A DNA stretch of 36,540 nt from a virus, in the IMG/VR virus record IMGVR_UViG_3300030098_006124, positions 1 to 36,540 of that record; one strand, 5' to 3'. A program made the translations under genes and the position numbers. How positions within the stretch are numbered: position 1 is the first letter of the stretch; every line of letters starts with the position of its first letter. The notes under the pieces were generated by a model, which had not been told where the DNA came from, ran no database searches, and saw only the letters and a program-made list of their open reading frames with translations. Below, one piece after another: positions 10,617 to 33,747 of the stretch.

Positions 10617-10637
10617 GTCATTTTACCTTTTTTACAA

Positions 10638-10645
10638 CTATTTAT
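10638..10645 (+). promoter_or_regulatory. CTATTTAT element before scaffold gene
   Basis: CTATTTAT lies 25 bases before the scaffold ATG and is followed by TGTAGCGTAATTTAGGAG. The same 7-mer CTATTTA occurs in five other gaps of this window. The copy before the sheath gene shares nearly the whole downstream stretch as well. A late-promoter core or a leader RNA signal is inferred. Confidence 0.6.
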
Positions 10646-10670
10646 TGTAGCGTAATTTAGGAGTAAACTT

Positions 10671-11801
10671 ATGTCATCAATGTTAGATCAAGCAATTATC
10701 GATGCAACAGCCTTAAGAGAAGCTGCAATTAAAAGTGCAGAACAGGCGGTTGTCGAAAAGTATTCAACAGAAATTAAAGAAGCCGTTGAACAATTAATGG
10801 AAGAAAACGATTTCGAAGAGAATAAGACTGTTGATGAGCAGATTGTTGAGGCAGATGATAAAGGCAAAGGTTACGCTTTTGTTGAGGACACCGAACTTAG
10901 CGATTTAGAACAAAACGATCTTGTAGACATTGATGTTAAAGCTTTATTTGAGGAAGTTCAGCAAGAACAGCTTCAAGAAGAAGTAGAGATTGATGATGAG
11001 TTATTAGAAGAAGACGTTGAAATTTCAGATGAACTTATTGATCAGTTGGTTGAAGAGATTATGACAGAGGGATCAGAAGACTCCACAACAGAAGAAAAAG
11101 AAGTTGTTGAAGAGGAGAAGGAAAACTTAGAAGAGATGGAGATGCCAGCAGACTTAAGCCCCTCTGAGACTGAGGGGACTACTGGCGAGGCACCAATGCC
11201 CGCTACCGTGGAAGAAGAAGCACTTGAAGAAGAAATCAAGATGGATTACAAGCCAGTTCCAGAAGGACAAACAACTGCTTACGGTGCAACAAGAGCACAG
11301 CAGGCAGAGCAAGCTATGTTAATGGACGTAATGCTCGCCATCGAAGAAGAAAACGCTAAATTAGAAAAGAAAAACGAAACTTTGGTTAAGACCGGCGCAA
11401 GCTTAAAAGAGTCTAACCAAAAATTAAAAGAAACCGTGAAGAATATTGCTGAGAAGTTTGAGGAAATCAAATTAATGAACAGCAAGTTATTCTACACAAA
11501 CCAAACTTTAATGGACGACTCCCTGAATGAGCGACAAAAGGGTAACCTTGTCGAGTCTATTAATAATGCTCAGACATCTGAGCAAGCGAAGATTGTCTAT
11601 GAAACTCTTAAAAGCACAGTGGGCAATGCTATTATGAATAAGCAACCGGAATCTCTGAGTGAGGCAGTAGGCAAGCGATCTTCAACATCTTTATTGCTAA
11701 AAGCACAAAAAAGCGACGATAAGCCAAAGGTAAACGAAAGTAACATCTTAGCTAATCGTATGCAAATTTTAGCAGGCATTAAACATCATAAGGAGGATTA
11801 A
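10671..11801 (+). CDS. 22: Prohead scaffold / core protein (gp22-like)
   Basis: The scaffold forms the inner core of the prohead and is degraded by the gp21 protease. The 376-residue protein is strongly acidic: residues about 40-200 are dominated by Glu and Asp. A long coiled-coil-like helical region follows (about 205-300). The C-terminus NRMQILAGIKHHKED fits the short conserved tail of gp22-type scaffolds. It is longer than T4 gp22 (269). Many Leu/Ile-x-Glu sites for the protease are present. It lies four bases before the capsid gene, as in T4, and has its own CTATTTAT element and AGGAG site. Confidence 0.9.
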   Translation: MSSMLDQAIIDATALREAAIKSAEQAVVEKYSTEIKEAVEQLMEENDFEENKTVDEQIVEADDKGKGYAFVEDTELSDLEQNDLVDIDVKALFEEVQQEQLQEEVEIDDELLEEDVEISDELIDQLVEEIMTEGSEDSTTEEKEVVEEEKENLEEMEMPADLSPSETEGTTGEAPMPATVEEEALEEEIKMDYKPVPEGQTTAYGATRAQQAEQAMLMDVMLAIEEENAKLEKKNETLVKTGASLKESNQKLKETVKNIAEKFEEIKLMNSKLFYTNQTLMDDSLNERQKGNLVESINNAQTSEQAKIVYETLKSTVGNAIMNKQPESLSEAVGKRSSTSLLLKAQKSDDKPKVNESNILANRMQILAGIKHHKED

Positions 11802-11805
11802 AACA

Positions 11806-13665
11806 ATGTCAAACATAGTCGAAAGATTAACAGAAAACATCGTTGCTCGTGATCTCTCCAAGGAAGGCGCTGCCCTAGTTTCCAAATGGGAAAAAACAGG
11901 TCTACTTGAAGGACTCGGTAATGATAGAATGAGGGACAACATGTCTCGACTCTTAGAAAACCAAGCCAAGGAACTTCTTCGTGAAGCTTCCACAATGGCT
12001 GCTGGTGATGTAGAGGGCTTCGCAGCCGTCGCATTCCCAATCGTCCGTCGTGTATTCGGCGGTCTACTCGCTAACGATCTTGTTAGTGTACAACCAATGA
12101 GCCTACCATCAGGTCTCATCTTCTTCTTGGACTTCAAGAAGGCAACTGAAGTAGGCGGCGGTCGCCTTGGTAGCAATGCTGATGATTCCGTTTACGGTGG
12201 CGGCGTTCTTGGTGCTCAGTTGACAGGCGGTGTTGACCTCAGCGGAAATAACGCTGAGAAGTCTTTCTACAGCTTGAATAACGGCTACTCATCACCAGTT
12301 TCATCATCTGCAATCGCTTCTGCTTTTACAATTGTTCAGTCTGGTGCAATTGGTGAAGGTGGAGAGTTCTTCCAGTACCCAGAGAGTGTTATGAGAAGTG
12401 TTCAAGTTACTGAGGCTGCGGTTAACCAAGATATTACTAAGTATGACCCAGATCTTACATCTGGTTCTGCGGTTCTTATTATGAAAGCCAGCACTACAGA
12501 TCACCACCTATCACAGCTTAACAAGGATGACCTTATTACTATCGCCCTTCAAGGCGATGCTAATGGTACACCTTTGGCTCAAGGTACTACTAAAGCAGCC
12601 CGTCAGGAAAGAAGACTAACATCTTACCTTTCATCTGATGCTGCTCGTTCAGAAGTTTACATTGTTGTTGTACACGCTTCTGGTACAACGGCAAACTTCG
12701 GGTCAAATGCAGATCAAAACTTAATTGATTTGGAGACTTCTGTACTCCGTGATGCTACTCACTACGAGTACGCCACTGCTGATAATTTCAATGCTGCTAG
12801 TGCTGAAGGTGCCGTTGTAGGTGCTACTAACTGGCTCTTAGAGTCCGACATGACTGCATTCGCAGGTGTTTTTAAGGATGGTTCCGCTGAAATCCCAGAG
12901 ATTGACATCAAGGTTGATTCAATCGCTGTTACAGCTAACACCAAGAAGCTCCGCGCTAAGTGGTCACCAGAGTTGGGTCAAGACCTAAACGCTTACCACA
13001 ACTTGGACGCTGAAGTTGAGTTAACTGGCATTCTTTCTGAGCAGGTTGCTTTGGAGATCGATCGTGAAATCCTAAACGACCTCATCAAGAGAGCAACTGC
13101 TGGCACTCTACACTGGTCACGCAATCCCGGTCAATTCTTGAACCGTGAGACCGGTGCTGAGGTTGGTGCTGCTTCTGCTGCTCCTGACTTCACAGGTACC
13201 GTTTCTGAGTGGTACGAGACTCTTCTTGAGACAATCAATGACGTTTCCGCTCGTATTCACAGAAAGACACTTCGCGGTGGTGCTAACTTCGTAGTTTGTT
13301 CACCAGAAGTTGCCAGCATTCTTGAGTTCACTGCTGGTTTCCGCGCTGCTGTCAGCGTTGATTCCAATGGCACAGCCGGTGCTGTAAACGTTGGTTCAAT
13401 CTCCAAGAAGTTTGACGTTCACGTCGATCCTTACTTCCCACGCAACATCGTGTTGGTTGGTCGCAAGGGCAACAGCTTCTTAGAGAGCGGCTACGTTTAC
13501 GCTCCATATGTCCCACTACAGGTCACTCCTACCATCTTTGGTACTGAGGACTTTGCACCACGCAAGGGTGTAATGACTCGCTACGCTAAGAAGATGGTTC
13601 GCCCTGACATGTACGGCTTGGTTATTTGCCATGGCTTGATTGGTTCAAGTGGTGCAACTGCTTAA
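11806..13665 (+). CDS. 23: Major capsid protein (gp23-like)
   Basis: This HK97-fold protein builds the head shell. The core signature ANDLVSVQPMSLPSGLIFFL (89-108) matches T4-type gp23 (CGVQPMNSPTGQVFAL). The C-terminal GTEDFAPRKGVMTRYAKKMVRP region is also typical. Length is 619 residues against 521 in T4. The T4 cleavage site precedes an Ala; here Leu58-Arg-Glu60 before Ala61 is a good candidate for gp21 processing, with mature protein starting ASTMAAG. The gene looks to use more C-ending codons than its neighbours, as expected for very high expression. A strong terminator follows directly. Confidence 0.97.
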   Translation: MSNIVERLTENIVARDLSKEGAALVSKWEKTGLLEGLGNDRMRDNMSRLLENQAKELLREASTMAAGDVEGFAAVAFPIVRRVFGGLLANDLVSVQPMSLPSGLIFFLDFKKATEVGGGRLGSNADDSVYGGGVLGAQLTGGVDLSGNNAEKSFYSLNNGYSSPVSSSAIASAFTIVQSGAIGEGGEFFQYPESVMRSVQVTEAAVNQDITKYDPDLTSGSAVLIMKASTTDHHLSQLNKDDLITIALQGDANGTPLAQGTTKAARQERRLTSYLSSDAARSEVYIVVVHASGTTANFGSNADQNLIDLETSVLRDATHYEYATADNFNAASAEGAVVGATNWLLESDMTAFAGVFKDGSAEIPEIDIKVDSIAVTANTKKLRAKWSPELGQDLNAYHNLDAEVELTGILSEQVALEIDREILNDLIKRATAGTLHWSRNPGQFLNRETGAEVGAASAAPDFTGTVSEWYETLLETINDVSARIHRKTLRGGANFVVCSPEVASILEFTAGFRAAVSVDSNGTAGAVNVGSISKKFDVHVDPYFPRNIVLVGRKGNSFLESGYVYAPYVPLQVTPTIFGTEDFAPRKGVMTRYAKKMVRPDMYGLVICHGLIGSSGATA

Positions 13666-13697
13666 TGTAGTTAAATAAATTAAATGGATTTATCCAG

Positions 13698-13730
13698 CCC
13701 CCGGTTCGCAAGAACCGGGGGTTTTATTTT
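13698..13730 (+). terminator. Rho-independent terminator after capsid gene
   Basis: A perfect 10-base-pair stem (CCCCCGGTTC with GAACCGGGGG) closes on a GCAA tetraloop of the GNRA class and is followed by TTTTATTTT. It lies 32 bases after the capsid stop. It should end most head-module transcripts and also stabilise their 3' ends. Confidence 0.95.
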
Positions 13731-13737
13731 ATCAACA

Positions 13738-13745
13738 CTATTTAT
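13738..13745 (+). promoter_or_regulatory. CTATTTAT element before lysine-rich gene
   Basis: CTATTTAT begins 8 bases after the terminator T-run and ends 27 bases before ATG 13773. Because a perfect terminator stands just upstream, the following gene needs either read-through or its own promoter. This placement supports a promoter role for the element. Confidence 0.6.
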
Positions 13746-13772
13746 TAGACAAACATTAAACAGGAGTTTATC

Positions 13773-14012
13773 ATGGGCAAAAAAAGAAAAATGATTTCAC
13801 ACCCACAATTTTGGAAAAAGCACGCCAATCACCCAGCAGTTAAAGCAAGACAGGTCGAAGAGTCAGTTAAAGAAGCTGCTGCACCACAACCAAAACCTGA
13901 ACCAAAAAAGGTTGAGGTAAAGCCTGCTCCAAAACCAGTTGTGAAGAAAGAGGCTGTCAAGCCCAAAGCAACTAAAAAAGTTGTTAAGAAAGTTGTTAAA
14001 AAAACAAAGTAA
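13773..14012 (+). CDS. Small lysine/proline/alanine-rich basic protein
   Basis: The 79-residue product has 23 lysines. Residues 1-30 contain an aromatic, His-containing segment (HPQFWKKHANHP). Residues 35-79 are a low-complexity Pro/Ala/Lys/Val tail similar in composition to histone H1 tails, ending in KKVVKKVVKKTK. AGGAG lies upstream of the ATG. The gene stands alone between two perfect terminators and has its own CTATTTAT element, so it is probably a separate, abundant late transcript. A DNA-condensing internal head protein is one possibility. The family is not recognised. Confidence 0.8.
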   Translation: MGKKRKMISHPQFWKKHANHPAVKARQVEESVKEAAAPQPKPEPKKVEVKPAPKPVVKKEAVKPKATKKVVKKVVKKTK

Positions 14013-14035
14013 TTAAAACAATAAATTAACAATTG

Positions 14036-14070
14036 CCCTCCGATGTTTTCATCGGAGGGTTTCTTTTTTC
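14036..14070 (+). terminator. Rho-independent terminator after lysine-rich gene
   Basis: A perfect 10-base-pair stem (CCCTCCGATG with CATCGGAGGG) with a TTTT loop is followed by TTTCTTTTTTC. It ends 23 bases after the lysine-rich gene and insulates it from the neck genes. Confidence 0.95.
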
Positions 14071-14075
14071 AAAAA

Positions 14076-14083
14076 CTATTTAG
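14076..14083 (+). promoter_or_regulatory. CTATTTAG element before gp13-like gene
   Basis: CTATTTAG follows the terminator T-run by 5 bases and lies 19 bases before ATG 14103, with TAGGAG between. It shares the 7-mer CTATTTA with the other gaps and again stands immediately after a terminator. Confidence 0.55.
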
Positions 14084-14102
14084 ATAGTAGGAGAATATAT
14101 GA

Positions 14103-15389
14103 ATGTCTGTACCAGTTTTAACACCATCAAGTAATTCAAGCAAAGTAATTTTGCCAATTACAGGAACCCCAGATAATGTAAATGCTGCAAGTAATCCACT
14201 ACCATTTGGTTTTTACATGCAAGGACCGGATCACCAAGCTTTTGCTTCAGGCGCATCAGATCAGGTTGGTTTTGTTTATAAAAAATTGGGTGGAGATGTC
14301 TTAGACATTGAATTAACTCAGTTTAATGTTTATGCAGCTTATGAAGAGGCTGTTTTAGAATATTCATACTTAGTAAATATTCATCAAGCAAAAAACTCAT
14401 TAAACAACCTACTTGGGGCTACAACGGCTTCTTTTGATGAAGACGGGCAGATTGTTGAAGGTCATGCTTTAAGCGGCTCTAACGTCGAAATGGCGCTTCC
14501 AAGATATACTTTTGATTATACAAGAAGGGTGGCTGAAGGAATCGCTTCGGAAGCTGGAGTTGGTGGTGGTTTAAGTTACTATACGGCTTCTTTTGCTCCA
14601 ACTGCAAGTGTCCAAGACTACGATTTACAACAAATTGTTAGTTCATCTGTTGAAAATGGCGAATTAACTTTGAACGATGGCGATACGGTTGGTAACAATA
14701 AAATTATTATTCGTGATATGTATTATAAAACACCAAGATCGATGTGGAGGTTTTTTGCTTATTACGGAGGCTTAAACGTAATTGGTAACATGTCAACGTA
14801 TGGACAATACGCAGATGATTCGCAATTTGAGGTGGTCCCAACTTGGCAAAATAAGCTTCAGGCAATAATGTATGAGGATTCAATTAGAACCAGAACATCA
14901 AATTATTCATATGAAATCATCAATAATAAGTTAAGATTGTATCCAACACCATCGACCCACTCACCAGATCGTTTCTATTTTAGATTCACTGTAAAAAAAG
15001 ATTCATTTGAAGAATATCCAGATCGACAGTCAGGAACAAAGGGTGTTAATAATATGAACAATTTACCATTTCAAAACATCCCGTATTCATCAATTAACTC
15101 AATTGGCAAGCAGTGGATTCGCAGATTTGCTTTGGCACTTTGCAAAGAAATGCTTGGACAAATCAGAGGAAAGCTGGGTAATGTTGTTCCACTTCCAGGC
15201 GGCAATGTTTCACTTAATGCAACCTCTCTTTTATCAGAGGCAACAAAAGAGATGGGCGATTTAAGAACAGAACTCAAGACAGTATTGGACGAGTTAACTT
15301 ATGAGAAGTTATTAACAAAAGACGCCAATATGACTAAAACAACTGCGGACACATTAAGCAAAGTTCCAGTTCCATTATTTGTAGGATAA
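14103..15389 (+). CDS. 13: Neck protein (gp13-like head completion)
   Basis: gp13 joins the portal vertex to the tail after DNA packaging. The 428-residue protein includes QFNVYAAYEEAVLEYSYLVNIHQAK (about 79-103, split here by position), a helical block seen in T4-like head-completion proteins, and a helical C-terminal part around LCKEMLGQIRGKLGNV (about 347-362). It is longer than T4 gp13 (309). The assignment rests strongly on order: it is followed by gp14-like and gp15-like genes as in T4. ATG 14103 is used; an overlapping ATG at 14099 is out of frame and ends after 11 codons. Confidence 0.75.
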   Translation: MSVPVLTPSSNSSKVILPITGTPDNVNAASNPLPFGFYMQGPDHQAFASGASDQVGFVYKKLGGDVLDIELTQFNVYAAYEEAVLEYSYLVNIHQAKNSLNNLLGATTASFDEDGQIVEGHALSGSNVEMALPRYTFDYTRRVAEGIASEAGVGGGLSYYTASFAPTASVQDYDLQQIVSSSVENGELTLNDGDTVGNNKIIIRDMYYKTPRSMWRFFAYYGGLNVIGNMSTYGQYADDSQFEVVPTWQNKLQAIMYEDSIRTRTSNYSYEIINNKLRLYPTPSTHSPDRFYFRFTVKKDSFEEYPDRQSGTKGVNNMNNLPFQNIPYSSINSIGKQWIRRFALALCKEMLGQIRGKLGNVVPLPGGNVSLNATSLLSEATKEMGDLRTELKTVLDELTYEKLLTKDANMTKTTADTLSKVPVPLFVG

Positions 15390-15395
15390 TAAAGA

Positions 15396-15881
15396 ATGGC
15401 AGATGATAAATGGACAAGACCTGATGCACCGCCGCCACCGCTTTTTACGGGGCAAAAGGAAGCTGATTTTGTTAAACAGATTAATGACGAAGTTATTGAG
15501 AGAGTTGTGGGACAACAAATTCTTTACTTTCCAATTTCCAGACAGCATTCCAATTATCATCCGTTATACGGCGAATCAATAGAAAAGACCTACTTGCCAC
15601 CAATTAGAGTTTATAGTCGTGTAAGCTGGAAAGGAACTAAAACAGAGTTTACAAAATATGGCATTGATAGAAGACCGCAAATTGTAGTTGATTTTCAGAA
15701 AAGGCGCCTGACGGAAGATCAGAATTTATATGTCCGCGTAGGAGATTTTGTTCGTTATGGGGATTTTGATTACGAAATTGTAGAACTCAGCGAGCCAAAA
15801 TTGCTTTTTGATCAGACTGATAAAAGCTTTGAAATTAGCGCAACTTGCATTTTGGCAAGAGAAGGAAAATTTAACCCATAG
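15396..15881 (+). CDS. 14: Neck protein (gp14-like)
   Basis: gp14 works with gp13 in the neck that seals the packaged head. The 161-residue product keeps the gp14 core. YFPISRQHSNYHPLYGESIE (about 48-67) corresponds to T4 YVPREYVSPDLIFGEDL, and GDFVRYGDFDYEIVELSEP (about 112-130) corresponds to T4 [20 protein letters not shown]. It is shorter than T4 gp14 (256) and lacks its C-terminal third. It begins with a proline-rich segment (PDAPPPP). It sits 6 bases after the gp13-like gene and 9 before the gp15-like gene. Confidence 0.85.
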   Translation: MADDKWTRPDAPPPPLFTGQKEADFVKQINDEVIERVVGQQILYFPISRQHSNYHPLYGESIEKTYLPPIRVYSRVSWKGTKTEFTKYGIDRRPQIVVDFQKRRLTEDQNLYVRVGDFVRYGDFDYEIVELSEPKLLFDQTDKSFEISATCILAREGKFNP

Positions 15882-15890
15882 GAACAATAA

Positions 15891-16859
15891 ATGCTACCAA
15901 AGTATATCGAAGAAAACTATAAATTTAACAACTATAGAGACGCTTTAAAGAAAGCTGAAGATCTTGATTGTGTAGGCACCCATACTGAGAATGGACATTT
16001 TTATCCTTGCAAAAATGCTGACGATCTTTTTAAGTCGGCTTATTCAGTACAATATGATACACTTATTCCATCATCTTTTGAAACTATTGATATGGCTTTA
16101 TACGGTTGGTTGGACGAAACAATTGATATTTTTGCCACAAGAAACGATGGCTGGCGCAAAGTTCCAATAATTTGGCTAACACAGGAAAGAGCTTTTCAGA
16201 TTAAAGATGATAGAGAAATGCGGGAATTGGGAACAGAATCACTTAAATTCCCCATGATTTCGGTGGAGAGGACATCAATTAAACAAACCGCTGTTAATGA
16301 TTGCCCAATACCAGCGAGATTGTTTGCAGGGAGTGATGGGACTACATTAACAATCGCAAAAAAGATAAAACAATCAAAAACAAAAAACTTTGCAAATGCT
16401 ACAAGTTTAAGATTGTATAAGCAAAATAATTTTAAATTTGAAAACAAAAAGGTTGTATATGAAATGGCAACAGTTCCGCTCCCCATCTATCATGATTTAA
16501 ACTATACAATAAATTTAAGAGCAGAATATCAACAACAGATAAATGACATGCTTCAGCCATTCGCTGCTTTTAACAACAACATAAATCAGTTTATGATTAG
16601 TGATAGCGGACACAGTTATGAGGCATTCTTACAAACTGATTTTGGTATTGCCAACAATATAGGCAATCTTGCTAATAACGAAAAAGTTTATGAATCAAAA
16701 ATTCAAGTTCGCGTTATTGGTTACATCATGGGCGGCGGTCCAAATCAAAAAGGACCACAGGTTGCAAGAAAAGAAAATTTTGTTGAAGTGCGCTTCCCAA
16801 GAGAACATGTCATGCTTGGCGATATTAACGATTTCTCAGATGATGGATACAGACCGTAG
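15891..16859 (+). CDS. 15: Tail terminator / sheath stabiliser (gp15-like)
   Basis: gp15 caps the tail tube and sheath and binds the neck. The 322-residue protein shows the family pattern. VPIIWLTQERAFQIKDD (about 88-104) matches T4 VPITYASKEHFMMK, and FPMISVERTSIK (about 116-127) matches T4 LPRINLHLVDFSYN. YTINLRAEYQQQINDMLQPF (about 205-224) matches T4 YELSIFTRYEDDMFQIVEQILPYF. It is slightly longer than T4 gp15 (272), partly through an N-terminal cysteine/His-bearing extension (about 20-45). It is the last gene before the sheath gene. Confidence 0.87.
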   Translation: MLPKYIEENYKFNNYRDALKKAEDLDCVGTHTENGHFYPCKNADDLFKSAYSVQYDTLIPSSFETIDMALYGWLDETIDIFATRNDGWRKVPIIWLTQERAFQIKDDREMRELGTESLKFPMISVERTSIKQTAVNDCPIPARLFAGSDGTTLTIAKKIKQSKTKNFANATSLRLYKQNNFKFENKKVVYEMATVPLPIYHDLNYTINLRAEYQQQINDMLQPFAAFNNNINQFMISDSGHSYEAFLQTDFGIANNIGNLANNEKVYESKIQVRVIGYIMGGGPNQKGPQVARKENFVEVRFPREHVMLGDINDFSDDGYRP

Positions 16860-16878
16860 TTTTTAGGCTAATTCAAAA

Positions 16879-16886
16879 CTATTTAC
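16879..16886 (+). promoter_or_regulatory. CTATTTAC element before sheath gene
   Basis: CTATTTAC ends 24 bases before ATG 16911 and is followed by TGTAGCATATTTGGGAG. Compared with the element before the scaffold gene, about 20 of the 24 bases following the 7-mer agree. This is far more than expected for unrelated leaders. Confidence 0.6.
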
Positions 16887-16910
16887 TGTAGCATATTTGG
16901 GAGACGATTT

Positions 16911-19871: not shown

Positions 19872-19902
19872 ACTAATTAATAGGAAAGCAGGAGTATAAA
19901 TA

Positions 19903-20472: not shown

Positions 20473-20480
20473 TTACTTAG

Positions 20481-21038: not shown

Positions 21039-21052
21039 CTTAAGAGGTATAA

Positions 21053-21841: not shown

Positions 21842-21851
21842 TTATTTGGAG

Positions 21852-21992
21852 ATGGTTTACTCTAACATTATGACATTAATTTCATCTGGGGGTTGGACAT
21901 ATAAAGATATTTGTGACCTCGCTGTATCAAAAAGGGATTGGATATTTAATAAATTTATTGAGTTAAATACACCAAAGGAAGAGGATCAATAA
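21852..21992 (+). CDS. Small downstream frame: frameshift extension or separate 46-aa protein
   Basis: The frame encodes a 46-residue peptide from ATG 21852, containing GGWTYKDICDLAVSKRDW, a compact helical sequence. The only GGAG (21848-21851) touches the ATG with no spacing, which is poor for independent initiation. The frame is open back to 21612, so it can be joined to the gp26-like protein by a -2 or +1 shift at the T8 run. The fusion would resemble the gpG/gpGT pair of lambda. It stops directly before the ATG of the tape-measure candidate. It could also be a coupled separate gene. Confidence 0.6.
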   Translation: MVYSNIMTLISSGGWTYKDICDLAVSKRDWIFNKFIELNTPKEEDQ

Positions 21993-23369: not shown

Positions 23370-23387
23370 AATAATTTTTTATTTAAT

Positions 23388-23395
23388 CTATTTAT
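23388..23395 (+). promoter_or_regulatory. CTATTTAT element directly before gp48/54-like gene
   Basis: CTATTTAT is followed by TGT and then ATG 23399, so only three bases separate the element from the start codon and there is no ribosome binding site between. TTGTATGGCATTAT after it resembles the TTGTAGCGTAATTT seen before the scaffold gene. It sits in the only gap of this part of the tail module. Confidence 0.5.
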
Positions 23396-23398
23396 TGT

Positions 23399-24247: not shown

Positions 24248-24255
24248 ATAGTAAA

Positions 24256-24606
24256 ATGGCATCAAGATACGATAGAACTGGTACAAATAGCTTAAACGAT
24301 ATAGATTATAAAAGAGTCTATTTGGATAAATTTGATAATGGCAGAAGGCAATACATCCCAATAATCGAGACTCTGAATATATCTTACCCATCTTTTGATG
24401 AGATTTTACAGCTTGATTATACGGACCATGTTTGGTCGTTGGGTGATAGGTATTACAAACTCGCGGACTCTTATTATGGTGATTCAAGATATTGGTGGAT
24501 TATTGCGTGGTTTAACAAAAAGCCAACAGAATCTCACATCAAAGTCGGAGATATTATAAGAGTTCCCAGTTCTTTAGGGGACATATTGTCTGCCACGGGG
24601 TATTAA
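24256..24606 (+). CDS. 53: Baseplate wedge protein (gp53-like, LysM-type)
   Basis: The 116-residue protein carries the gp53 signature. YTDHVWSLGDRYYKLADSYY (about 55-74) and RYWWIIAWFNKKPTESHIKVGD (split, about 78-99) form a LysM-like fold that in T4 gp53 links wedges in the baseplate. PIIETLNISYPSFDEIL precedes it, as in the family. It is shorter than T4 gp53 (196). It sits 8 bases after the gp48/54-like gene and 3 bases before a large unknown, within the baseplate cluster. Confidence 0.88.
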   Translation: MASRYDRTGTNSLNDIDYKRVYLDKFDNGRRQYIPIIETLNISYPSFDEILQLDYTDHVWSLGDRYYKLADSYYGDSRYWWIIAWFNKKPTESHIKVGDIIRVPSSLGDILSATGY

Positions 24607-24609
24607 AGT

Positions 24610-27381: not shown

Positions 27382-27388
27382 GAGGGTG
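27381..27388 (+). promoter_or_regulatory. Ribosome binding site that decides a TTG start
   Basis: AGAGGGTG lies 5 to 8 bases before TTG 27394 and immediately after the upstream TAA. No in-frame ATG or GTG occurs near the front of the following gene, so this strong site supports initiation at TTG. Confidence 0.7.
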
Positions 27389-27393
27389 ATAAG

Positions 27394-28839
27394 TTGAAGA
27401 TTAATATTCAAGAATTATTTAAAGTTAAGAAAGAAATACAAGATAAAGAAAGCACTCTTGTTACCTTTGATGATGTTTCAAATCAAAGCAATACAGCGGA
27501 AATTTATAAAGCAAGGAAATCTTACAAAGAGCAAATAAATGACAACAATTTGCCGATTGGTGAGAAAAATTCTGCTGGGCAAAATTTAAACAATCAACTG
27601 GACACTTGGTACAAAGAAAAAAATTATTTAAAATACGATTATCAGCATAGACTCATTGCACCCTTTTTCGGACCTGAAAAATTAAAACAGCTTCAAGGCG
27701 ATTTTCAGCTATTGGATTTTGCTGCTGATGCCGCAGAAAATTTTTTCGACCAATTTAACAATCAGCGACCGGGACATCCAAAAAGCTCCTTAAATAATTT
27801 AAGAATAGTAAAAGCTTATCAGCCAATAAAGTCGTATTCTGCGCACGTTGAAGAAGTCTATATTGAATTTTTTAATGACGTACTTAATGAAATAAAAAAC
27901 ACCAATAAGGTGAAAAATTTTGACGACTTTTTAAATTTGTTCTACTCTTGGTTCATTGGAAAAAACGTTGCAATTAGTAAAGCTGGCTACTACGAAGCCG
28001 CGAATTATAGCATTTACAATACAGGTTTGGCATTTGATTTTTTTAAAGTAGAAAGTGAGATAGATAAGCAGACAATTTTAAATGATGTTAGATTTCCTGT
28101 TTTAAATTATGTGGCAAAGGTTAATGGATTAAGAATAGACCCAAATAATCCAAATACTCTGATAGCAGACATACAATCAGAAAAATTATTGGAACTATAT
28201 GTAAAAAATTATTTTAAAGAAAAAGACTTATCAGAGTTGCCAACAATGATTTTAGATGAATATTTTGTAAAGCAAAACTTTTTTCTGAGTTCTGATAAGG
28301 TAATAACTGAATTGTTTGTTTTTCTGTCGTCAGCTTACAAAAGGTTTACAAACAAATATCCAACTTATATTGACTATGCTGCATCAGCTAATATTAGTCA
28401 ACTCTATAAAAAGAAATTTCAAACGTCAAAGATTAAAAGACAAGAACCTCAGTTGTTGTTAAACAAAGATAGAATAAAATATTATATTAAAATAAGGGCA
28501 AAAGAAAACAATTTTAATTTAAAAAGCACGGCTTTGGATACCATAGCTAAAAATGTGTTGTCCCTAATAGATGTATCAAACTCTATAATTTTTAAAAATA
28601 AAGCTTCCTTTGCAGAGCGATTAGCAATTTCTGGACAAGCAATAAATTATTTAGAGTTGTTTCTGAGAAATCAAGGATCTAAGAACAACACAGACAAGAG
28701 AGAATTAGTATTTTTTTGGAACAGGGGAGTTAGAAAACTCTTGACAGGGACCGAAGAATCTGCTACATTAGTACAAGAAGACGAGGAAGGATTGTTATTT
28801 TCTGTTAATCCAACCGATCAAACCACAGACTTTTCTTAA
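27394..28839 (+). CDS. Large hypothetical baseplate-region protein with TTG start
   Basis: The 481-residue protein begins at TTG 27394, supported by AGAGGGTG just upstream; no near alternative start fits. It is rich in Lys, Asn, Phe, Tyr and Leu and is predicted to be mostly helical. Recognisable segments include WYKEKNYLKYDYQHRLIAPF (about 70-89), but no known motif. The C-terminus is acidic. It follows the 923-residue virion protein and is the last structural gene before replication. The polymerase promoter lies inside its 3' end. Function unknown; a structural role is inferred from position. Confidence 0.78.
   Translation: MKINIQELFKVKKEIQDKESTLVTFDDVSNQSNTAEIYKARKSYKEQINDNNLPIGEKNSAGQNLNNQLDTWYKEKNYLKYDYQHRLIAPFFGPEKLKQLQGDFQLLDFAADAAENFFDQFNNQRPGHPKSSLNNLRIVKAYQPIKSYSAHVEEVYIEFFNDVLNEIKNTNKVKNFDDFLNLFYSWFIGKNVAISKAGYYEAANYSIYNTGLAFDFFKVESEIDKQTILNDVRFPVLNYVAKVNGLRIDPNNPNTLIADIQSEKLLELYVKNYFKEKDLSELPTMILDEYFVKQNFFLSSDKVITELFVFLSSAYKRFTNKYPTYIDYAASANISQLYKKKFQTSKIKRQEPQLLLNKDRIKYYIKIRAKENNFNLKSTALDTIAKNVLSLIDVSNSIIFKNKASFAERLAISGQAINYLELFLRNQGSKNNTDKRELVFFWNRGVRKLLTGTEESATLVQEDEEGLLFSVNPTDQTTDFS
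28741..28769 (+). promoter_or_regulatory. Sigma70-type promoter for DNA polymerase
   Basis: TTGACA (28741-28746), a 17-base spacer ending in TGC, then TACATT (28764-28769). The -35 is perfect, the -10 matches at 4 of 6 bases, and TGn gives an extended -10. It lies within the previous coding region, about 77 bases before ATG 28847. Confidence 0.65.
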
Positions 28840-28846
28840 GGACTAA

Positions 28847-30034
28847 ATGTTTTTCTCAAAAATTGATACAAAAAATAATTGCAAAAGCATCTTTGCAGAC
28901 GATAAAGTATTCTCTGATTACGAGGATACAATGAAATATACTTGGACATATCAAGATGACTTACCACCAGATGTGAAGTTTGTTAAGTTGTTTTGTGGTG
29001 GTGAAGATTATGTTAAGCTGCTTCCAAAGCACGATGCAGAAGAATACAAGATGCTGGAAAACAAAATCAAGAACACACTTAAATCATATAGCGTGTGCGG
29101 GTATGACCCTCGCAAGTTTTGTTTGGACGAATTGATTGAAAAAACTTTTATTGAAGATTTCTTTAACTTAAAAAATAAAGCTATGGAACTTGCGGTAAAG
29201 AATTATCAAGAACCAAAAAACTATGCTCAGTTGGAAAAAATTGAGCGTATGGTTCATTCAATCTCAAAGCGTTCGTTAAACTTGGATCTTACAAATGTGT
29301 ATACAGCAGCAAATGATAACCGTATCAGGAAGATTATTAAGAGATATTCATCCAGCCCTGCCTTTATCCAGTACAACACCTTCGGGACTGTGACGGGGCG
29401 GTTATCTACTACCCCCTCTTCGTTTCCCCTGCTTACCCTAAACAAAGAATATCGCACAATGATCAAACCAAACAATGGCGTTTTCATTGAGTTTGATTAC
29501 AATGCTTTTGAATTGCGTGTTTTAACGGCTCTGCTTGGTCGTGAGCAGCCGAAAGGCGACATCCACGACTGGAACATCAAGAATATATTTAAGGACGGCA
29601 CAGAGCGATCTGAGGCGAAAAAGAGAATATTTGCGTGGCTTTACAATCCAAATTCTGATGACGCTCTTTTATCTCGCGAGTATGATAGGGATGGTTTGCT
29701 GAAAAAATATTTTTCTGATGGTAAAATTACAACTGATTTTGATAGAGAAATTGAGGCAGATGATTATCACGCACTTAATTATCTAATCCAAAGCACTGCG
29801 TCTGATTTGTTTTTGGAGCAGGCTTATAAAGTATTTAAGATTTTGCAAGACAATAATAGTAAATCTTATGTTTCTATGCTTATCCACGACAGTATGATCT
29901 TAGATTTTGATAGGAAAGATTATAAATTGCTTAATCAGATCAGGGATACATTTAAGCAGACAAGATATGGTGAAATGAAACTAAATATTCAGGTTGGAAG
30001 AACATTGGGAGATCTAAGCACAGAATGGATGTAA
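28847..30034 (+). CDS. Family A DNA polymerase, polymerase domain only
   Basis: This 395-residue protein should copy phage DNA. TFGTVTGRLST (about 178-188) precedes motif A FIEFDYNAFELRVL (catalytic Asp217). Motif B is RSEAKKRIFAWLYN, with Arg254, Lys258, Phe262 and Tyr266 at the exact Pol I spacing. NYLIQSTASDLF (311-322) follows, and motif C is MLIHDSMILD (His347, Asp348, Ser349). The residue after the catalytic Asp is Ser, where Pol I has Glu. No 3'-5' exonuclease motifs appear in the first 170 residues, and the protein is much shorter than Klenow (about 600). True T4 relatives use a family B polymerase, so this is a mosaic replisome. It overlaps the next gene by 10 bases. Confidence 0.93.
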   Translation: MFFSKIDTKNNCKSIFADDKVFSDYEDTMKYTWTYQDDLPPDVKFVKLFCGGEDYVKLLPKHDAEEYKMLENKIKNTLKSYSVCGYDPRKFCLDELIEKTFIEDFFNLKNKAMELAVKNYQEPKNYAQLEKIERMVHSISKRSLNLDLTNVYTAANDNRIRKIIKRYSSSPAFIQYNTFGTVTGRLSTTPSSFPLLTLNKEYRTMIKPNNGVFIEFDYNAFELRVLTALLGREQPKGDIHDWNIKNIFKDGTERSEAKKRIFAWLYNPNSDDALLSREYDRDGLLKKYFSDGKITTDFDREIEADDYHALNYLIQSTASDLFLEQAYKVFKILQDNNSKSYVSMLIHDSMILDFDRKDYKLLNQIRDTFKQTRYGEMKLNIQVGRTLGDLSTEWM

Positions 30035-30870
30035 TTGGTATTGGAAACGCTGGGCGTGAAATATGTAAGTTGTTTGAGGAAAAGGGTTATAAAGCATACT
30101 CTATTGATACACACACTGACGCTTATGTAAAGTTCCCTAAAGTAAAGACGATTGAAGAAGCAGAAAAGGTTGAAATTGATCTTGATAAACTTAAAAACAA
30201 TGTTAAATCGGATCAGATCCTCTGTGTTATGGCAGGATCTGGACTTATAACAGGCGCTTGTCTTAGAATATTGGAGAACTTCAAGGATAAACAGATTGAT
30301 TTTCTTTATATTCAGCCTGACACTTCGTTTATGAATAACAATGGCAAGACAAGAGAGCGAGTTGTAAGGAATATCTTACAAGAATTTGCACGGTCAGGGT
30401 TGTTCAACAAAATGTGGCTGATCTCCAATAAAAGTATCTCTAACTTGGCGTCTGATATATCTATTGGCAACTATTTTCAGAAGGTAAACGAGAAAATTGT
30501 TGACATGTGGTGTCTAATGGAGTATTATGGTCAGGCATCTGCGTTGATGGGGAACTTAGAAGAGCCAGAGGAGCAGAATAGGATCGCAACTTTTGGGCTG
30601 TATAGTCTTAATGATGAGGCAGAACAAAAGTTTTATGAACTGGAAGGAGTAAGAGAGAAACACTTTTACTTTACTTTTAGCGAAGAAACATTAGCAGAGA
30701 CAGGCAATGTTTTGGATTTAGTATCTCGCAAGTTAAAGAAGGCGGAAGAAAATGAATTTCAGCAAGTATCTTACGGCTTTTTCCCATCGGGATATTCTGT
30801 TGACAAAGTGTACATAATGTACTATACTAATCATATACAAAGCGAGGCAGGGAAATCACCTGCCTTATAA
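30025..30870 (+). CDS. Diverged FtsZ/tubulin-like protein
   Basis: The 281-residue protein follows the order of FtsZ/tubulin GTPase landmarks in altered form. An N-terminal strand-loop reads DVIGIGNAGREI (2-13) with a following SIDTHTDA (26-33). LCVMAGSGLITGACLRILE (66-84) stands where the GGGTGTG loop lies. A Rossmann-type IDFLYIQPDT (91-100) and MWLISNKSISNLA (130-142) parallel the P-ND loop, then a helix leads into a second domain. The GTP signature is degenerate and no clear T7 loop is seen, so it may not hydrolyse GTP. It is coupled to the polymerase and followed by gp32. Phage tubulins that centre DNA are known in other large phages; this role is inference. Confidence 0.6.
   Translation: MDVIGIGNAGREICKLFEEKGYKAYSIDTHTDAYVKFPKVKTIEEAEKVEIDLDKLKNNVKSDQILCVMAGSGLITGACLRILENFKDKQIDFLYIQPDTSFMNNNGKTRERVVRNILQEFARSGLFNKMWLISNKSISNLASDISIGNYFQKVNEKIVDMWCLMEYYGQASALMGNLEEPEEQNRIATFGLYSLNDEAEQKFYELEGVREKHFYFTFSEETLAETGNVLDLVSRKLKKAEENEFQQVSYGFFPSGYSVDKVYIMYYTNHIQSEAGKSPAL
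30800..30828 (+). promoter_or_regulatory. Sigma70-type promoter for gp32
   Basis: TTGACA (30800-30805), a 17-base spacer, TATACT (30823-30828). The -35 is perfect and the -10 matches 5 of 6 bases. The predicted start near 30835 gives a leader of about 50 bases before ATG 30886 that contains a stem-loop. The promoter lies inside the end of the tubulin-like gene. Confidence 0.75.
30846..30864 (+). promoter_or_regulatory. Stem-loop in gp32 leader
   Basis: GGCAGG (30846-30851) pairs with CCTGCC (30859-30864) around a 7-base loop, ending 8 bases before the AAGGAG ribosome site of gp32. It has no T-run, so it is not a terminator. T4 gp32 represses its own translation through a leader structure, so an autoregulatory or RNA-stability role is reasonable inference. 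Confidence 0.5.
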
Positions 30871-30885
30871 CAAGGAGTAAATAAC

Positions 30886-31626
30886 ATGGCTATTGATTTG
30901 AAAAAAATGCGAGCAAAGCTCGCTTCTACTGAGAACAAGGGTGGAGGTTCTAACAAGAATCTATTTTGGAAGCCACAAGATGGCGAGTCCGTAATTCGTA
31001 TTGTTCCAGATCCAGATGGAGATCCCTTCAAGGAGTACTGGTTTCACTACAATGTAGCAAACAACCCCGGTTTTCTTTCACCAAAGAAGAATTTTGGAGA
31101 GGACGATGTGCTTGACGCATATGTTCGCAAGTTGTTCAATGATGGCACAGAGGAAAGCCGCGAGGAAGCAAAGAAGCTTATGGCAAAGCAGCGCTTCTTT
31201 TCCCCTGTAATTGTTCGTGGTGAAGAGGAAAAGGGTGTTCGTCTTTGGGGTTATTCCAAGACTGTATACCAAAAGCTTCTTCAGTTGGTTCTAAACCCAG
31301 AGTATGGCGATATTACTGACCTACAGGAAGGCACAGACCTTACTATTAATTATGGTAAGAAGGCTGGTCAGATGTTCCCAAGCACTGACATTTTCCCAGC
31401 CCGTCGCACTTCCCCATTGCATAAGGATAAGGGACTGGCAAAAGAGTTGGCTGAGACTGAGATTCAGTATGATAATGTCTTTTCTAAGAAGACAACTGAT
31501 GAGGTTCAGCAGATGTTGGAGCAGCACTTGTCAGGCGATACTGATGATAGTGCTGGTACAGTTCAGTATGCTAAGACCACTGACGATGCAGCAGACCAAG
31601 CATTTAAGTCCTTGCTTTCTGCTTAA
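30886..31626 (+). CDS. 32: Single-stranded DNA-binding protein (gp32-like)
   Basis: gp32 coats single-stranded DNA in replication and recombination and recruits UvsX and the helicase machinery. The 246-residue protein starts with the basic LKKMRAKLAST segment (cooperativity region). The family core follows: NLFWKPQDGESVIRIVPDPD (about 25-44), PFKEYWFHYNV, then FFSPVIVRGEEEKGVRLWGYSKTVYQKLLQL (split, about 105-135). It ends in an acidic tail containing SGDTDDSAG. It contains no cysteine, so the structural zinc site of T4 gp32 is absent. It is shorter than T4 gp32 (301). AAGGAG precedes the ATG, and a perfect terminator follows. Confidence 0.92.
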   Translation: MAIDLKKMRAKLASTENKGGGSNKNLFWKPQDGESVIRIVPDPDGDPFKEYWFHYNVANNPGFLSPKKNFGEDDVLDAYVRKLFNDGTEESREEAKKLMAKQRFFSPVIVRGEEEKGVRLWGYSKTVYQKLLQLVLNPEYGDITDLQEGTDLTINYGKKAGQMFPSTDIFPARRTSPLHKDKGLAKELAETEIQYDNVFSKKTTDEVQQMLEQHLSGDTDDSAGTVQYAKTTDDAADQAFKSLLSA

Positions 31627-31640
31627 ATAAGTGTTATAAT
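31612..31640 (+). promoter_or_regulatory. Sigma70-type extended -10 promoter for uvsX
   Basis: TTGCTT (31612-31617), a 17-base spacer ending in TGT, then a perfect TATAAT (31635-31640). The -35 matches 3 of 6 bases, but the TGnTATAAT extended -10 is complete. Predicted start is near 31647, inside the gp32 terminator stem. Confidence 0.75.
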
Positions 31641-31641
31641 G

Positions 31642-31674
31642 GGCGAGGGGGAAAAATCCCCCTCGCCTTCTTTT
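31642..31674 (+). terminator. Rho-independent terminator after gp32
   Basis: A perfect 10-base-pair stem (GGCGAGGGGG with CCCCCTCGCC) with an AAAAAT loop is followed by TTCTTTT. It ends gp32 transcripts. A start at about 31647 for uvsX would leave a GGGGG/CCCCC hairpin at the 5' end of the new RNA. Confidence 0.93.
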
Positions 31675-31685
31675 ATGGAGACAAA

Positions 31686-32795
31686 ATGGCAAAAACAAAA
31701 ACAGGCAAGCTTTCTATTGCCGATATGAAGAAATTAATTAATAAAAAGGCGGGTACTGATGTCGCCTTTTCTTTGTCTGACGACAACCCAACACAAGTTT
31801 TACAATTTATTCCAACTGGTTGTAAATGGCTTGATGGTATTATTAAACGTGGAGATTGGGGTGGTATTCCCGTTGGCAAAGTTAGTGAGATCGCTGGTTT
31901 AGAAGCAACCGGTAAATCTTATATGGCTGCACAGATTGCAGGCAATGCACAGAAGATGGGCATTGATGTCATCTACTTTGATTCAGAAAATTCTATTGAC
32001 CCAAACTTTTTGGCAATGGCGGGATGCGATGTTGAAAAGCTGCTTTATGTTCAGGCAAACTCAGTTGAGTTTGTGCTGGAAACTATTGAAAGTTTGCTTG
32101 GCAACAACGACAGTCAGATGCTTTTTATCTGGGATAGTATGGCGTTGACACCATCAGTATCAGACATTGAATCAGACTTCAACCCTTTGTCTACGATGGC
32201 AGTTAAACCTCGTATTCTTTCTAAGGGCTTGTCAAAACTAATTCAGCCAATTGCTAATACAAAGTCAACTCTATTAATTCTTAATCAGTTAAAGACTAAT
32301 ATTACAAGAAACACAGCAGAGGCTCTTACAACTCCCTACTTTACACCGGGCGGTAAAGCACTTGCATATTCATATTCATTGAGAATTTGGTTGACTGCAC
32401 GCAAAGGCAAGTCATCTTTCATCTTTGATGACAAGGGATTTAGAATTGGTACGGAGGTTAAGGCTAAGATTGAGAAGTCGCGCTTTGGAACCCAAGGTCG
32501 CCAATGCAACTTTAAGATTTTGTGGGCTGGCGAAGAAGTTAAGATTATGGATAAGGAAAGCTGGCTTGAAGCAATCAAGTCCTCAGATAGTCTAACAAAC
32601 GCGGGTGCTTGGTTTACCTTGCACTACGAAGATGGCAAGACAGATAAGTTCCAGACAAAGCAGTGGATGGACAAGCTTAATGACGAAAAGTTCTACAACA
32701 GAGTTATTAAGTTGTTGGAAGAAGAAGTGGTTATGAAGTTTGACAAGAGGATTGGTAAGTCCAGCGACTTCTACGAGGATGGTGAAAATGACTGA
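31686..32795 (+). CDS. uvsX: RecA-like recombinase UvsX
   Basis: UvsX catalyses strand exchange in recombination-dependent replication and repair. The 369-residue protein has the RecA core. Walker A is GLEATGKS (71-78), DVIYFDSENSID (94-105) carries the catalytic Glu101, and Walker B MLFIWDS (145-151) carries Asp150. LLILNQLKTNI and the GGKALAYSYSLRIWL strand follow. Length is close to T4 UvsX (391), and the spacing fits UvsX better than bacterial RecA. GGAG lies upstream of the ATG, with a dedicated sigma70 promoter. The stop overlaps the nuclease gene by 8 bases. Confidence 0.95.
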   Translation: MAKTKTGKLSIADMKKLINKKAGTDVAFSLSDDNPTQVLQFIPTGCKWLDGIIKRGDWGGIPVGKVSEIAGLEATGKSYMAAQIAGNAQKMGIDVIYFDSENSIDPNFLAMAGCDVEKLLYVQANSVEFVLETIESLLGNNDSQMLFIWDSMALTPSVSDIESDFNPLSTMAVKPRILSKGLSKLIQPIANTKSTLLILNQLKTNITRNTAEALTTPYFTPGGKALAYSYSLRIWLTARKGKSSFIFDDKGFRIGTEVKAKIEKSRFGTQGRQCNFKILWAGEEVKIMDKESWLEAIKSSDSLTNAGAWFTLHYEDGKTDKFQTKQWMDKLNDEKFYNRVIKLLEEEVVMKFDKRIGKSSDFYEDGEND

Positions 32796-33738
32796 GAGGT
32801 CTCTAATCATTGACGGCACAAATATATTTTATCGTGCTTATGTTGTAAATCCATCTTTGTCAACCAGCGGAGAGCCTGTTGGTGGATTGGTTGGCTTTCT
32901 TAAAACACTTCAGAAACTTACCAGAGAAATGAAGCCAGACAAGGTTTACATTTGTTGGGACGGTGCAGGAGGCTCTGCCCGTCGCAGATCAGTGGTGTCC
33001 TCTTACAAAGAAGGGCGAAAGGCAATTAGGCTAAACAGGTCTGATGGTGTTAGTATGTCTCTTGAAGAAGAAAACAAAAGCAAGATAGAACAAATGTTGA
33101 GGTTGTTAGAGTATATTGACAACTTGCCAATGGTCCAACTAATCCACGATGGCGTGGAAGCTGATGATATGATTTCAATTTTATGCCGTCAGATAGAAGG
33201 ACAAAAGATAATTGTTTCAAGCGATAAAGATTTTTATCAGTTGTTGGATGACGAAACAATTATTTACCGACCAGTACAAGCCGTTTTTAAAACAAGGAAC
33301 GACATACTGGAAGAGTTTAAAATTCATCCAAACAATTTTGCCCTAGCAAGAGCGGTTAGTGGTGATAAAAGCGACAACTTAGAAGGTGTCAAAGGTGCAG
33401 GACTAAAAACTTTAGCCAAGCGTTTTCCTTTCTTAGTAGAAGAAAAAGATTATAGTTTAACTGATTTATCAGATGTGTGCGAAGCAACAGAGAATAAATT
33501 AAAAATTCACGAGGGTATTCTTGACAACTACGACAAGATCTTAAAGAATTATAAAATTATGCAGTTGTATATTCCAAATGTCTCTTTTCAAGTAAGAGAT
33601 ATGGTTAAGAACTCAGTGGAAAACTATCCAAAGTATTATAATAAAACAGAAATTGTTAAGATGATGTTTCAGGATGGCTTTCCAGAAATCAGGTGGACAG
33701 ACCTTTTTGCAAGTTCTAATAGAATAGCAAAAACTTAG
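32788..33738 (+). CDS. rnh: 5'-3' nuclease (T4 RNase H / FEN-like)
   Basis: This FEN-type nuclease removes RNA primers and flaps on the lagging strand. The 316-residue protein starts at ATG 32788, chosen because GAGG lies 9 bases upstream; an in-frame ATG at 32779 sits on that site. Metal-binding acidic residues are Asp9 (IIDGTN), Asp58 (CWDG), Glu124/Asp126/Asp127 (EADD), Asp146/Asp148 (SSDKDF) and Asp193/Asp196 (SGDKSDN). The H3TH motif GVKGAGLKTLAKRF follows. The basic RRRSVVSSYKEGRK bridge is present. Length matches T4 RNase H (305). It overlaps uvsX, so the two are co-translated. Confidence 0.95.
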   Translation: MTERSLIIDGTNIFYRAYVVNPSLSTSGEPVGGLVGFLKTLQKLTREMKPDKVYICWDGAGGSARRRSVVSSYKEGRKAIRLNRSDGVSMSLEEENKSKIEQMLRLLEYIDNLPMVQLIHDGVEADDMISILCRQIEGQKIIVSSDKDFYQLLDDETIIYRPVQAVFKTRNDILEEFKIHPNNFALARAVSGDKSDNLEGVKGAGLKTLAKRFPFLVEEKDYSLTDLSDVCEATENKLKIHEGILDNYDKILKNYKIMQLYIPNVSFQVRDMVKNSVENYPKYYNKTEIVKMMFQDGFPEIRWTDLFASSNRIAKT

Positions 33739-33739
33739 A

Positions 33740-33747
33740 CTATTTAT
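33740..33747 (+). promoter_or_regulatory. CTATTTAT element before EF-hand-like gene
   Basis: CTATTTAT lies only 4 bases before the CGGAGG ribosome site and 16 before ATG 33764. It is the only copy within the replication module, which suggests that this gene is expressed with late genes. Confidence 0.5.

Follow-up and report, generated by a model that had tools for sequence, protein, structure and literature searches.

CTATTTA as the probable core of a late promoter in a fragment of a phage probably near the far-T4 group, with a -35-like box at a subset of sites

IMG/VR virus record IMGVR_UViG_3300030098_006124 is a 36,540-base stretch of DNA (the window, by which we mean the whole stretch) in which the heptamer CTATTTA stands in several gaps just before genes. 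What does this element do: is it a promoter, a signal in the RNA leader, or an accident of AT-rich gaps? From its counts, its placement and its recurrence in related phages, we consider it very likely that CTATTTA is the core of this phage's late promoter. We give a probability of about 0.6 to a fuller reading, in which the late promoter also carries an upstream box and is read by a one-chain sigma factor of the gp55 family, whose extra C-terminal domain would make gp33 unneeded.

Simple selection rules kept 40 open frames of at least 60 codons in the window, all on the + strand, and the gaps between them come to 1,056 bases (23 gaps of at least 7 bases). CTATTTA occurs nine times on the + strand and twice on the - strand (18664 and 22120), and it is the commonest 7-mer of the window gaps. 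A sequence-only reading of this DNA had proposed an element shared by six gaps, and counting in gaps against coding DNA bears this out: six of the nine + copies, and no - copy, lie in gaps. Under a first-order Markov model of these gaps, 20,000 simulations gave a mean of 0.20 copies and a maximum of 4, and none reached six. All six copies (10638, 13738, 14076, 16879, 23388 and 33740) are where they had been placed. The distances from element to ATG, given as 3 to 27 bases, needed correction to 4 to 28 (26 at 10638, 28 at 13738, 20 at 14076, 25 at 16879, 4 at 23388 and 17 at 33740). About two further + copies had been named as coding; those at 4115 and 7178 exist, and the total is nine rather than about eight, a copy at 9007 having been overlooked. 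Also absent from that reading were CTAATTA variants at 1370 and 19873.

PHROG matches in the window include terminase, portal, protease, major head protein, a gp13-like head-tail adaptor, sheath, two tube proteins, hub, a baseplate wedge protein, SSB, UvsX, an exonuclease and a DnaB-like helicase. For the capsid protein, the best records in the phage collection were an uncultured phage, Flavobacterium phage immuto, Microcystis phage Mel-JY01 and Rhodothermus phage RM378, at 42-51% identity over 56-61% of the protein. By these matches the window phage appears to belong near the far-T4 phages.

The element is strongly enriched in relatives. We took the best 80 among the matches listed, all of them IMG/VR loci whose capsid gene is related (57-71% identity), and collected 591 upstream stretches from these 81 sequences, window included. 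Relatives are not independent of one another, and the genes with no site at all and the diverged spacers, described below, answer this only in part. Among 7-mers seen at least 10 times, CTATTTA was the most enriched, with 209 copies before genes against 14.2 expected from a Markov model or 1.8 from the coding rate, ahead of the Shine-Dalgarno words. Variants CTAATTA and CTACTTA occurred 63 and 24 times, and A directly preceded the C in 88% of 239 gap sites, which together lead to the full element ACTAHTTA (H is T, A or C). A start-like purine follows. At these 239 sites, +6 was A or G in 82% and +7 was A in 57%; at 41 new sites from four later contigs (G009-G012), A or G stood at +6 in 73% and at +7 in 76%. 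The -10 element is best read as ACTA(T/A/C)TTA at -13 to -6, with a predicted start at a purine 6-7 bases downstream.

Taken singly, six long far-T4 contigs ranked CTATTTA first in four cases and fourth in the fifth; in the sixth it ranked 29, and the -9 variant CTACTTA ranked first. The same 7-mer method returned TTATAAA and ATAAATA for the late part of T4 and no clear upstream motif for P-SSM2. In RM378 (L099), TATTTAA stood before genes 14 times against 1.1 expected, several times followed by AGAAAAA and ATG, and in Mel-JY01 TATTTAT did so 19 times against 3.6. For immuto (L102), ATATTTA gave 29 against 4.5, much of it from a repeated TTG...TATATTTAGGTATCAATAA element that we take to resemble a Bacteroidota host promoter, and for that reason we kept the motif out of the late-promoter evidence. 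Tandem copies of CTATTTA, 10 bases apart, stand before one gene in L021 (about 11932-11949) and L025 (about 11246-11263), and pairs 16-17 bases apart occur in G009 and G012.

The T4 late promoter is TATAAATA at -13 to -6 (PMC1524935). The sequence-only reading had tied the element to it through the opposite strand (TAAATAG), a step that is unneeded: on the coding strand, ACTATTTA itself aligns with TATAAATA at -13 to -6. We dropped the reverse-strand reading, as the gap copies number six on + and none on -. We also rejected the T4-type octamer as the clade's late signal, as TATAAAT is not enriched before genes in the six long contigs; TATAAATA lies within 110 bases before only 3 of 522 ortholog starts (a sum of the listed numbers, with some starts counted twice). 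One perfect TATAAATA, at 19895-19902, separates the Shine-Dalgarno sequence of the first tube gene from its ATG.

Which genes does the element precede? We scanned for ACTAHTTA in the 110 bases before the start of each window gene's orthologs in loci L001-L098 that had an alignable start; L019 and L053 are parts of long contigs G001 and G002, whose pieces were also counted, so at most two starts per gene are double. The element was found before sheath in 48/48, scaffold in 11/11, gp13 in 55/72, tube in 29/37, g9035 in 16/21, g5584 in 10/16, the lysine-rich gene in 2/3 and g1530 in 2/7. It was found before none of the orthologs of capsid (0/79), g15396 (0/58), protease, S21 and g8394 (0/28 each), g7013 (0/20), hub (0/15), portal (0/14) or terminase (0/11), and G001 and G002 have no listed ACTAHTTA site within their dnaB-exonuclease-uvsX-SSB block. 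The element had been described as absent from replication-gene promoters. This is true of the gaps that precede SSB, uvsX and dnaB and fails in that the copy at 33740, before gene 33764 and between the exonuclease and dnaB genes, sits within the replication block.

A second conserved block lies upstream, and we give its offsets from the C of CTATTTA, so that -1 is position -13 relative to the predicted start. G, then G or T, then C, and TTT appear at about -21 to -15 both in 163 hairpin-free sites and in 81 sites with a predicted hairpin (folding energy of the 40 bases upstream below -6). Of 345 sites, 37 have the strict form G[GT]CNTTT beginning at exactly -21, with no more than 3 at any other single offset. 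Every one of these 37 has A at -1, as do 262 of the 345 in all; none of the remaining 83 sites has the box there, and seven control heptamers had no strict box at -21. TTT at -17 or -16 was found at 52/55 scaffold, 36/52 sheath and 34/45 gp13 sites, and at 36/72 sites preceding genes that have no counterpart in the window. Among scaffold, sheath and gp13 sites that have A at -1, the columns -17 to -15 carry 0.6-1.9 bits and most columns between box and core less than 0.5 bit, so TTT keeps one register across three gene contexts. In the later test set (G009-G012, 742 kb, 41 gap sites, 34 of them with A at -1), T made up 51-63% at -17 to -15. The box appears to be real and confined to a subset of sites, chiefly those before the main virion operons (scaffold-capsid, neck and sheath), and at about -33 to -27 from the predicted start it resembles a -35 element. 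Terminator tails as its whole cause are ruled out by the 163 hairpin-free sites that show it. At sites directly preceded by a terminator, such as 13738 and 14076, the terminator's G run and T tract coincide with or adjoin the box. Both the box and the two-domain sigma described below go beyond what the sequence-only reading had found.

To rank sites in the window we used a promoter model trained on 215 sites from relatives only and compared its scores with simulated or shuffled sequences. Its core score is identical for every exact ACTATTTA, so ranks among exact copies rest on the flanks. Six places in the window scored at least 14, against a mean of 0.47 and a maximum of 2 in 30 simulated sequences; at a threshold of 12 there were eight, against a mean of 1.6 and a maximum of 6 in shuffles. 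In falling order the best were 10638, 1370, 7178 and 16879, 13738 and 14076. Scores at 9007, 33740 and 19873 were weaker, and those at 23388 and 4115 (0.3) were near or at background; one - strand place, 22685 (CTGTTTA), scored 13.4, above 9007 and 33740. The predicted features are as follows, with counts of orthologs preceded by ACTAHTTA where these were given above.

1369 to 1376, + strand: candidate promoter, ACTAATTA, inside gene 1169-1537, with a GGCTTTT box; upstream of gene 1530 and the terminase gene; score 22.8.
7177 to 7184, + strand: candidate promoter inside gene 7013-7297, with A at -13 from the predicted start and TTT at -17 to -15 from the C; score 22.3.
9006 to 9013, + strand: ACTATTTA within the last part of the S21-like gene, 21 bases short of the ATG of 9035-9493; no box; score 12.9; 16/21 orthologs.
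10617 to 10623, + strand: -35-like box GTCATTT of the predicted scaffold-capsid promoter; strict G[GT]CNTTT at -21 from the C.
10637 to 10644, + strand: predicted -10 element ACTATTTA before scaffold 10671-11801; score 27.6, best in the window; 11/11 orthologs.
13696 to 13723, + strand: terminator-like hairpin after the capsid gene, 12-pair stem; G run and T tract close to where the next promoter would have its upstream box.
13737 to 13744, + strand: predicted -10 element ACTATTTA before the 79-amino-acid lysine-rich gene 13773-14012; score 21.6; 2/3 orthologs.
14035 to 14060, + strand: terminator-like hairpin before the gp13 promoter, 11-pair stem.
14075 to 14082, + strand: predicted -10 element ACTATTTA before the gp13-like head-tail adaptor 14103-15389; score 21.4; 55/72 orthologs.
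16878 to 16885, + strand: predicted -10 element ACTATTTA before sheath 16911-19871; TTT at -17 to -15; score 22.3; 48/48 orthologs.
19872 to 19879, + strand: predicted variant -10 element ACTAATTA before tube gene 19903-20472; no upstream box; score 10.4; 29/37 orthologs.
23388 to 23394, + strand: CTATTTA, probably no promoter, before gene 23399-24247; T at -13 from the would-be start, no box, 4 bases to the ATG; score 8.6.
33740 to 33746, + strand: CTATTTA, weak or uncertain as a promoter, before gene 33764-34156; no upstream box; score 11.9.

The head-tail adaptor and sheath genes match phrog_211 (E-value 4.5e-8) and phrog_23 (1.3e-64). Gene 10671-11801 has no family match and is called scaffold from its place between the protease and capsid genes. 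Its promoter, with a predicted start at about 10650, would also serve the capsid gene 11806-13665. The sequence-only reading had noted terminators before two of the copies, and both are there, each stem being followed by a T tract. It had also doubted the copy at 23388 as too close to its ATG, a doubt that the features listed above justify; this copy is probably not a promoter, and 33740 would be at best a weak or uncertain one. Gene 23399-24247 has no family match in the PHROG search, and neither it nor gene 33764 has an ortholog with an alignable start among loci L001-L098. The copy at 7178 should not have been set aside as coding: A before the element and TTT at -17 to -15 give it a score among the window's best, and it could serve gene 7392 and the protease gene 7777. 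The sites at 9007 and 19873 are supported, despite their low scores, by their conserved place. We regard 1370, 7178, 9007 and 19873 as candidates to add to the site list. The suggestion of a late promoter is borne out, as far as sequence goes, by enrichment, gene class, two upstream terminators and the start purine in relatives, and it falters at 23388 and is weak at 33740. The gene that contains the site at 9007 (8821-9051, between the protease and scaffold genes) is ribosomal protein S21-like (Pfam PF01165, E 4.3e-14), and Mel-JY01 also has an annotated S21 gene between its protease and capsid genes.

Some early and replication genes may use host-type TTGACA/TATAAT promoters. Two places in the window match 11 of 12 consensus bases, and these are consensus matches only:

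30800 to 30828, + strand: host-type TTGACA-17-TATACT before the SSB gene 30886.
34163 to 34191, + strand: host-type TTGACA-17-TATGAT before the dnaB-like helicase gene 34216.

One more 11/12 match lies on the - strand at 11812, inside the capsid region, and none was noted just before the uvsX or exonuclease gene of the window. A host-type scan gave 53 matches in 24001-36540 (40.2 expected) and 25 in 10000-24000 (32.8 expected). In the pieces of G001 and G002, TTGAC-17-TA...T was found before SSB in 1/2, dnaB in 1/2, uvsX in 0/2 and exonuclease in 0/1, and before no other gene of the ortholog table. A 12-pair terminator-like hairpin lies at 31641-31668, between the SSB and uvsX genes.

What might read this promoter? 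With gp55 of P-SSM2 as the query, a weakly similar protein was found in G001 and G002, and this protein has at least 80 relatives in IMG/VR. Of its family, 29 members were aligned, and 28 of them match the late sigma profile phrog_234 with E no higher than 0.01, the best at 4e-9. A profile of the far-T4 sigma finds proteins in immuto (E 2e-35) and Mel-JY01 (6e-28) over nearly their full length, and P-SSM2 gp55 (5.6e-5) over the domain 2 part only. The alignment shows a conserved C-terminal third. AlphaFold2 models had a predicted local distance difference test score (pLDDT) of 84 for the whole sigma and 90 for the C-terminal part alone, the latter with a predicted template modelling score (pTM) of 0.76. 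In VIA-align the first row for the whole model was T4 gp55 (7d7c_F, Z 11.0, root-mean-square deviation 4.7, 115 residues, model positions 14-139). For the C-terminal domain alone, the first six rows were sigma factors or their region 4 (Z 5.8-7.9), counting titles with RPSH and RPSD, which we take to be SigH and SigD; the top rows include sigmaE region 4 on -35 DNA (2h27_D, Z 5.9, 68 residues). It is plausible from these models that the C-terminal domain is a sigma region 4. RM378 has a sigma of its own near its capsid gene; we rejected it as a relative of the far-T4 sigma, since it falls in phrog_1740 and the far-T4 sigma profile does not find it.

No late promoter lies within 150 bases of the sigma gene itself in any of 29 loci. 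Around it, 80 other loci (L106-L185, 945 kb) hold 155 CTATTTA, with A at -1 in 30 and the box at -21 in none; here CTATTTA looks like chance, and these loci, apparently holding no late promoters, serve as a negative control. We also searched for partner proteins in 14 far-T4 records (12 from IMG/VR plus immuto and Mel-JY01), with T4 and P-SSM2 as controls. The gp33 profile matched 0/14 records and 2/2 controls, although divergence or missing sequence could hide gp33, and the gp45 clamp profiles phrog_223 and PF09116 likewise matched 0/14 and 2/2.

We propose that host core RNA polymerase with a phage-encoded gp55-family late sigma would read these promoters. Domain 2 of the sigma would read ACTATTTA, and transcription would begin at the purine 6-7 bases beyond the -10 element. 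The C-terminal domain of the sigma, seated on the beta flap, would recognise the second box, G[GT]CNTTT, which lies a fixed distance upstream at many main-virion-operon promoters; in this proposal no gp33 is therefore needed. The window's own phage would be expected to carry the sigma gene as well. The link between sigma and promoter is suggested by their co-occurrence.

We regard the far-T4 system as T4-type late transcription altered in its -10 sequence, its box, its extra sigma domain and its undetected gp33. It shares with T4 the late virion genes, a -10-like octamer that keeps the T4 register (T at -11, A at -10, T at -7 and A at -6), and a sigma of the same family (phrog_234) in far-T4 relatives. 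It differs in having A C at -13/-12, T, A or C at -9 and T at -8, and in the box at a subset of sites, whereas T4 late promoters have no conserved sequence at -35 (PMC7892883). The far-T4 sigma has an extra C-terminal domain that T4 gp55 lacks. The late promoter of Aeh1 is CTAAATA from -12 (PMC1524935), with C replacing A at -12 and A or G at -13 (PMC2988020); the far-T4 element is closer to it than to T4, but Aeh1 has AA at -9/-8 where the far-T4 element has NT, and no upstream box is mentioned for it in the available text. The protein gp33 can be viewed as a mimic of sigma domain 4, and laboratory gp55-gp33 fusions also combine what sigma domains 2 and 4 do in a single chain (PMC2988020). 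Those fusions were engineered and gp33 does not read sequence, according to the same paper, while the far-T4 one-chain form appears to be natural and its promoters carry a box.

Bacterial sigmas such as sigmaE have domains 2 and 4 only, and the far-T4 sigma would share with them a two-domain layout and bipartite promoters. It differs in matching the phage late sigma profile phrog_234 and no Pfam region 4 family.

In one library of open papers we found no report of a far-T4 promoter, nor any on Mel-JY01, which does not mean that none has been published. A paper on far-T4 fragments did not detect T4 core transcription-regulation genes and considered that transcription may differ or that the contigs were incomplete (PMC4360716). 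In pelagimyophages late promoter prediction failed (PMC7029224), and Ma-LMM01 is described as without gp55 and gp33 and using host-like promoters (PMC5780444). In the available text of PMC3185647, CTATTTA appears only in a terminator table, and that of PMC3037559, PMC10504331 and PMC9004378 holds nothing on a CTATTTA element.

A number of results weigh against the fuller reading. T4 itself has CTATTTA before genes 3 times against 0.3 expected. The strict box is a minority feature (the 37 of 345 sites), and TTT at -17 or -16 is rare at tube (1/15) and g9035 (0/10) sites. In G009-G012 the strict box stands at -21 in 3/41 sites and at -26 and -25 in one each, TTT is nearly as common at -25 as at -17 (7 against 10), and coding copies have the box at -21 in 1/91. 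The sigma gene lies outside the window fragment. It was found in 10 of 12 IMG/VR records tested, 8 of which had been picked for carrying it; of the 4 picked by capsid gene, 2 (the two longest) have it. The far-T4 sigma profile has no significant match to T4 gp55 (E 1.5), and Pfam recognised no region 4 in the sigma. The whole-sigma model has a pTM of 0.46, bacterial sigma factors come within 1 Z of T4 gp55 in VIA-align, and signal recognition particle proteins follow the sigma rows of the C-terminal domain at Z 5.2-5.4, such Z being doubtful for helical folds. Foldseek gave no match at E 0.001 or better (best 1.4e-2 for the whole model and 2.2 for the C-terminal domain). Both gp33 and the clamp may be too diverged for detection, and there were no transcript starts for far-T4 phages in the material examined.

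The strongest competing explanation, which we think unlikely but by no means negligible, is a T4-type late promoter in which only the -10 has changed, with a divergent clamp and an unrecognised gp33; the box would then be no sigma contact but what remains of terminator tails, or else a UP-like element or one that bends DNA. Many sites have no box, 81 of 244 follow a predicted hairpin whose G run and T tract land on it, and Aeh1 shows that a T4 relative can change its late -10, there to CTAAATA. Some clamp, if a divergent one, is also expected because Mel-JY01 has annotated clamp-loader genes. This explanation has to contend with a box that is equally clear in the hairpin-free sites and keeps one register in three gene contexts, with a conserved extra sigma domain whose first listed structures are sigma factors or region 4, and with the failure to find gp33 and a T4-like clamp in the 14 records.

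We consider it improbable that the box serves an activator in the manner of the T4 Mot box (GCTT at -30 to -27). The place is similar and the letters partly so (G[GT]CNTTT against TGCTTTA; PMC1524935), but Mot boxes go with middle promoters that have a TATAAT-type -10, and the MotA profile, positive in T4 and negative in P-SSM2, matched none of the 14 far-T4 records, although a diverged activator is possible. An RNA element in the leader, such as a processing or translation signal, was the alternative offered by the sequence-only reading and would fit gap copies that are all on the coding strand and close to start codons. It is very improbable, since two copies come right after terminator-like hairpins, where few upstream transcripts should arrive, and since the box stands upstream at a fixed spacing and a purine at the expected start place. 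Chance in AT-rich gaps draws on the ordinary count over both strands of the window, 11 copies against 7.9 expected, and is already refuted by the gap simulation, the enrichment over 81 sequences and the per-gene ortholog table.

A bolder step, which we find rather doubtful though possible, is that a natural one-chain late sigma reads -35 and -10 without gp33 or the replication clamp and that late genes are untied from ongoing DNA replication, unlike in T4. In that case either the split gp55/gp33 with a -35-less promoter would be a derived state, or the one-chain form would be a return to a normal sigma. A 2010 review by Geiduschek and Kassavetis asked why no fused late-transcription sigma is found in nature (PMC2988020), and the far-T4 sigma family is a direct candidate for one. 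The question can now be tested because cultured phages with a relative of this sigma exist (immuto and Mel-JY01). Far-T4 phages are mostly metagenomic, and a late promoter with its likely sigma would allow their late operons to be read from sequence. Elsewhere in the window, the 151-base gap at 21842-21992 can be read as a small 46-codon open frame that starts at an ATG at 21852, in frame with a listed 126-codon frame at 21612-21992.

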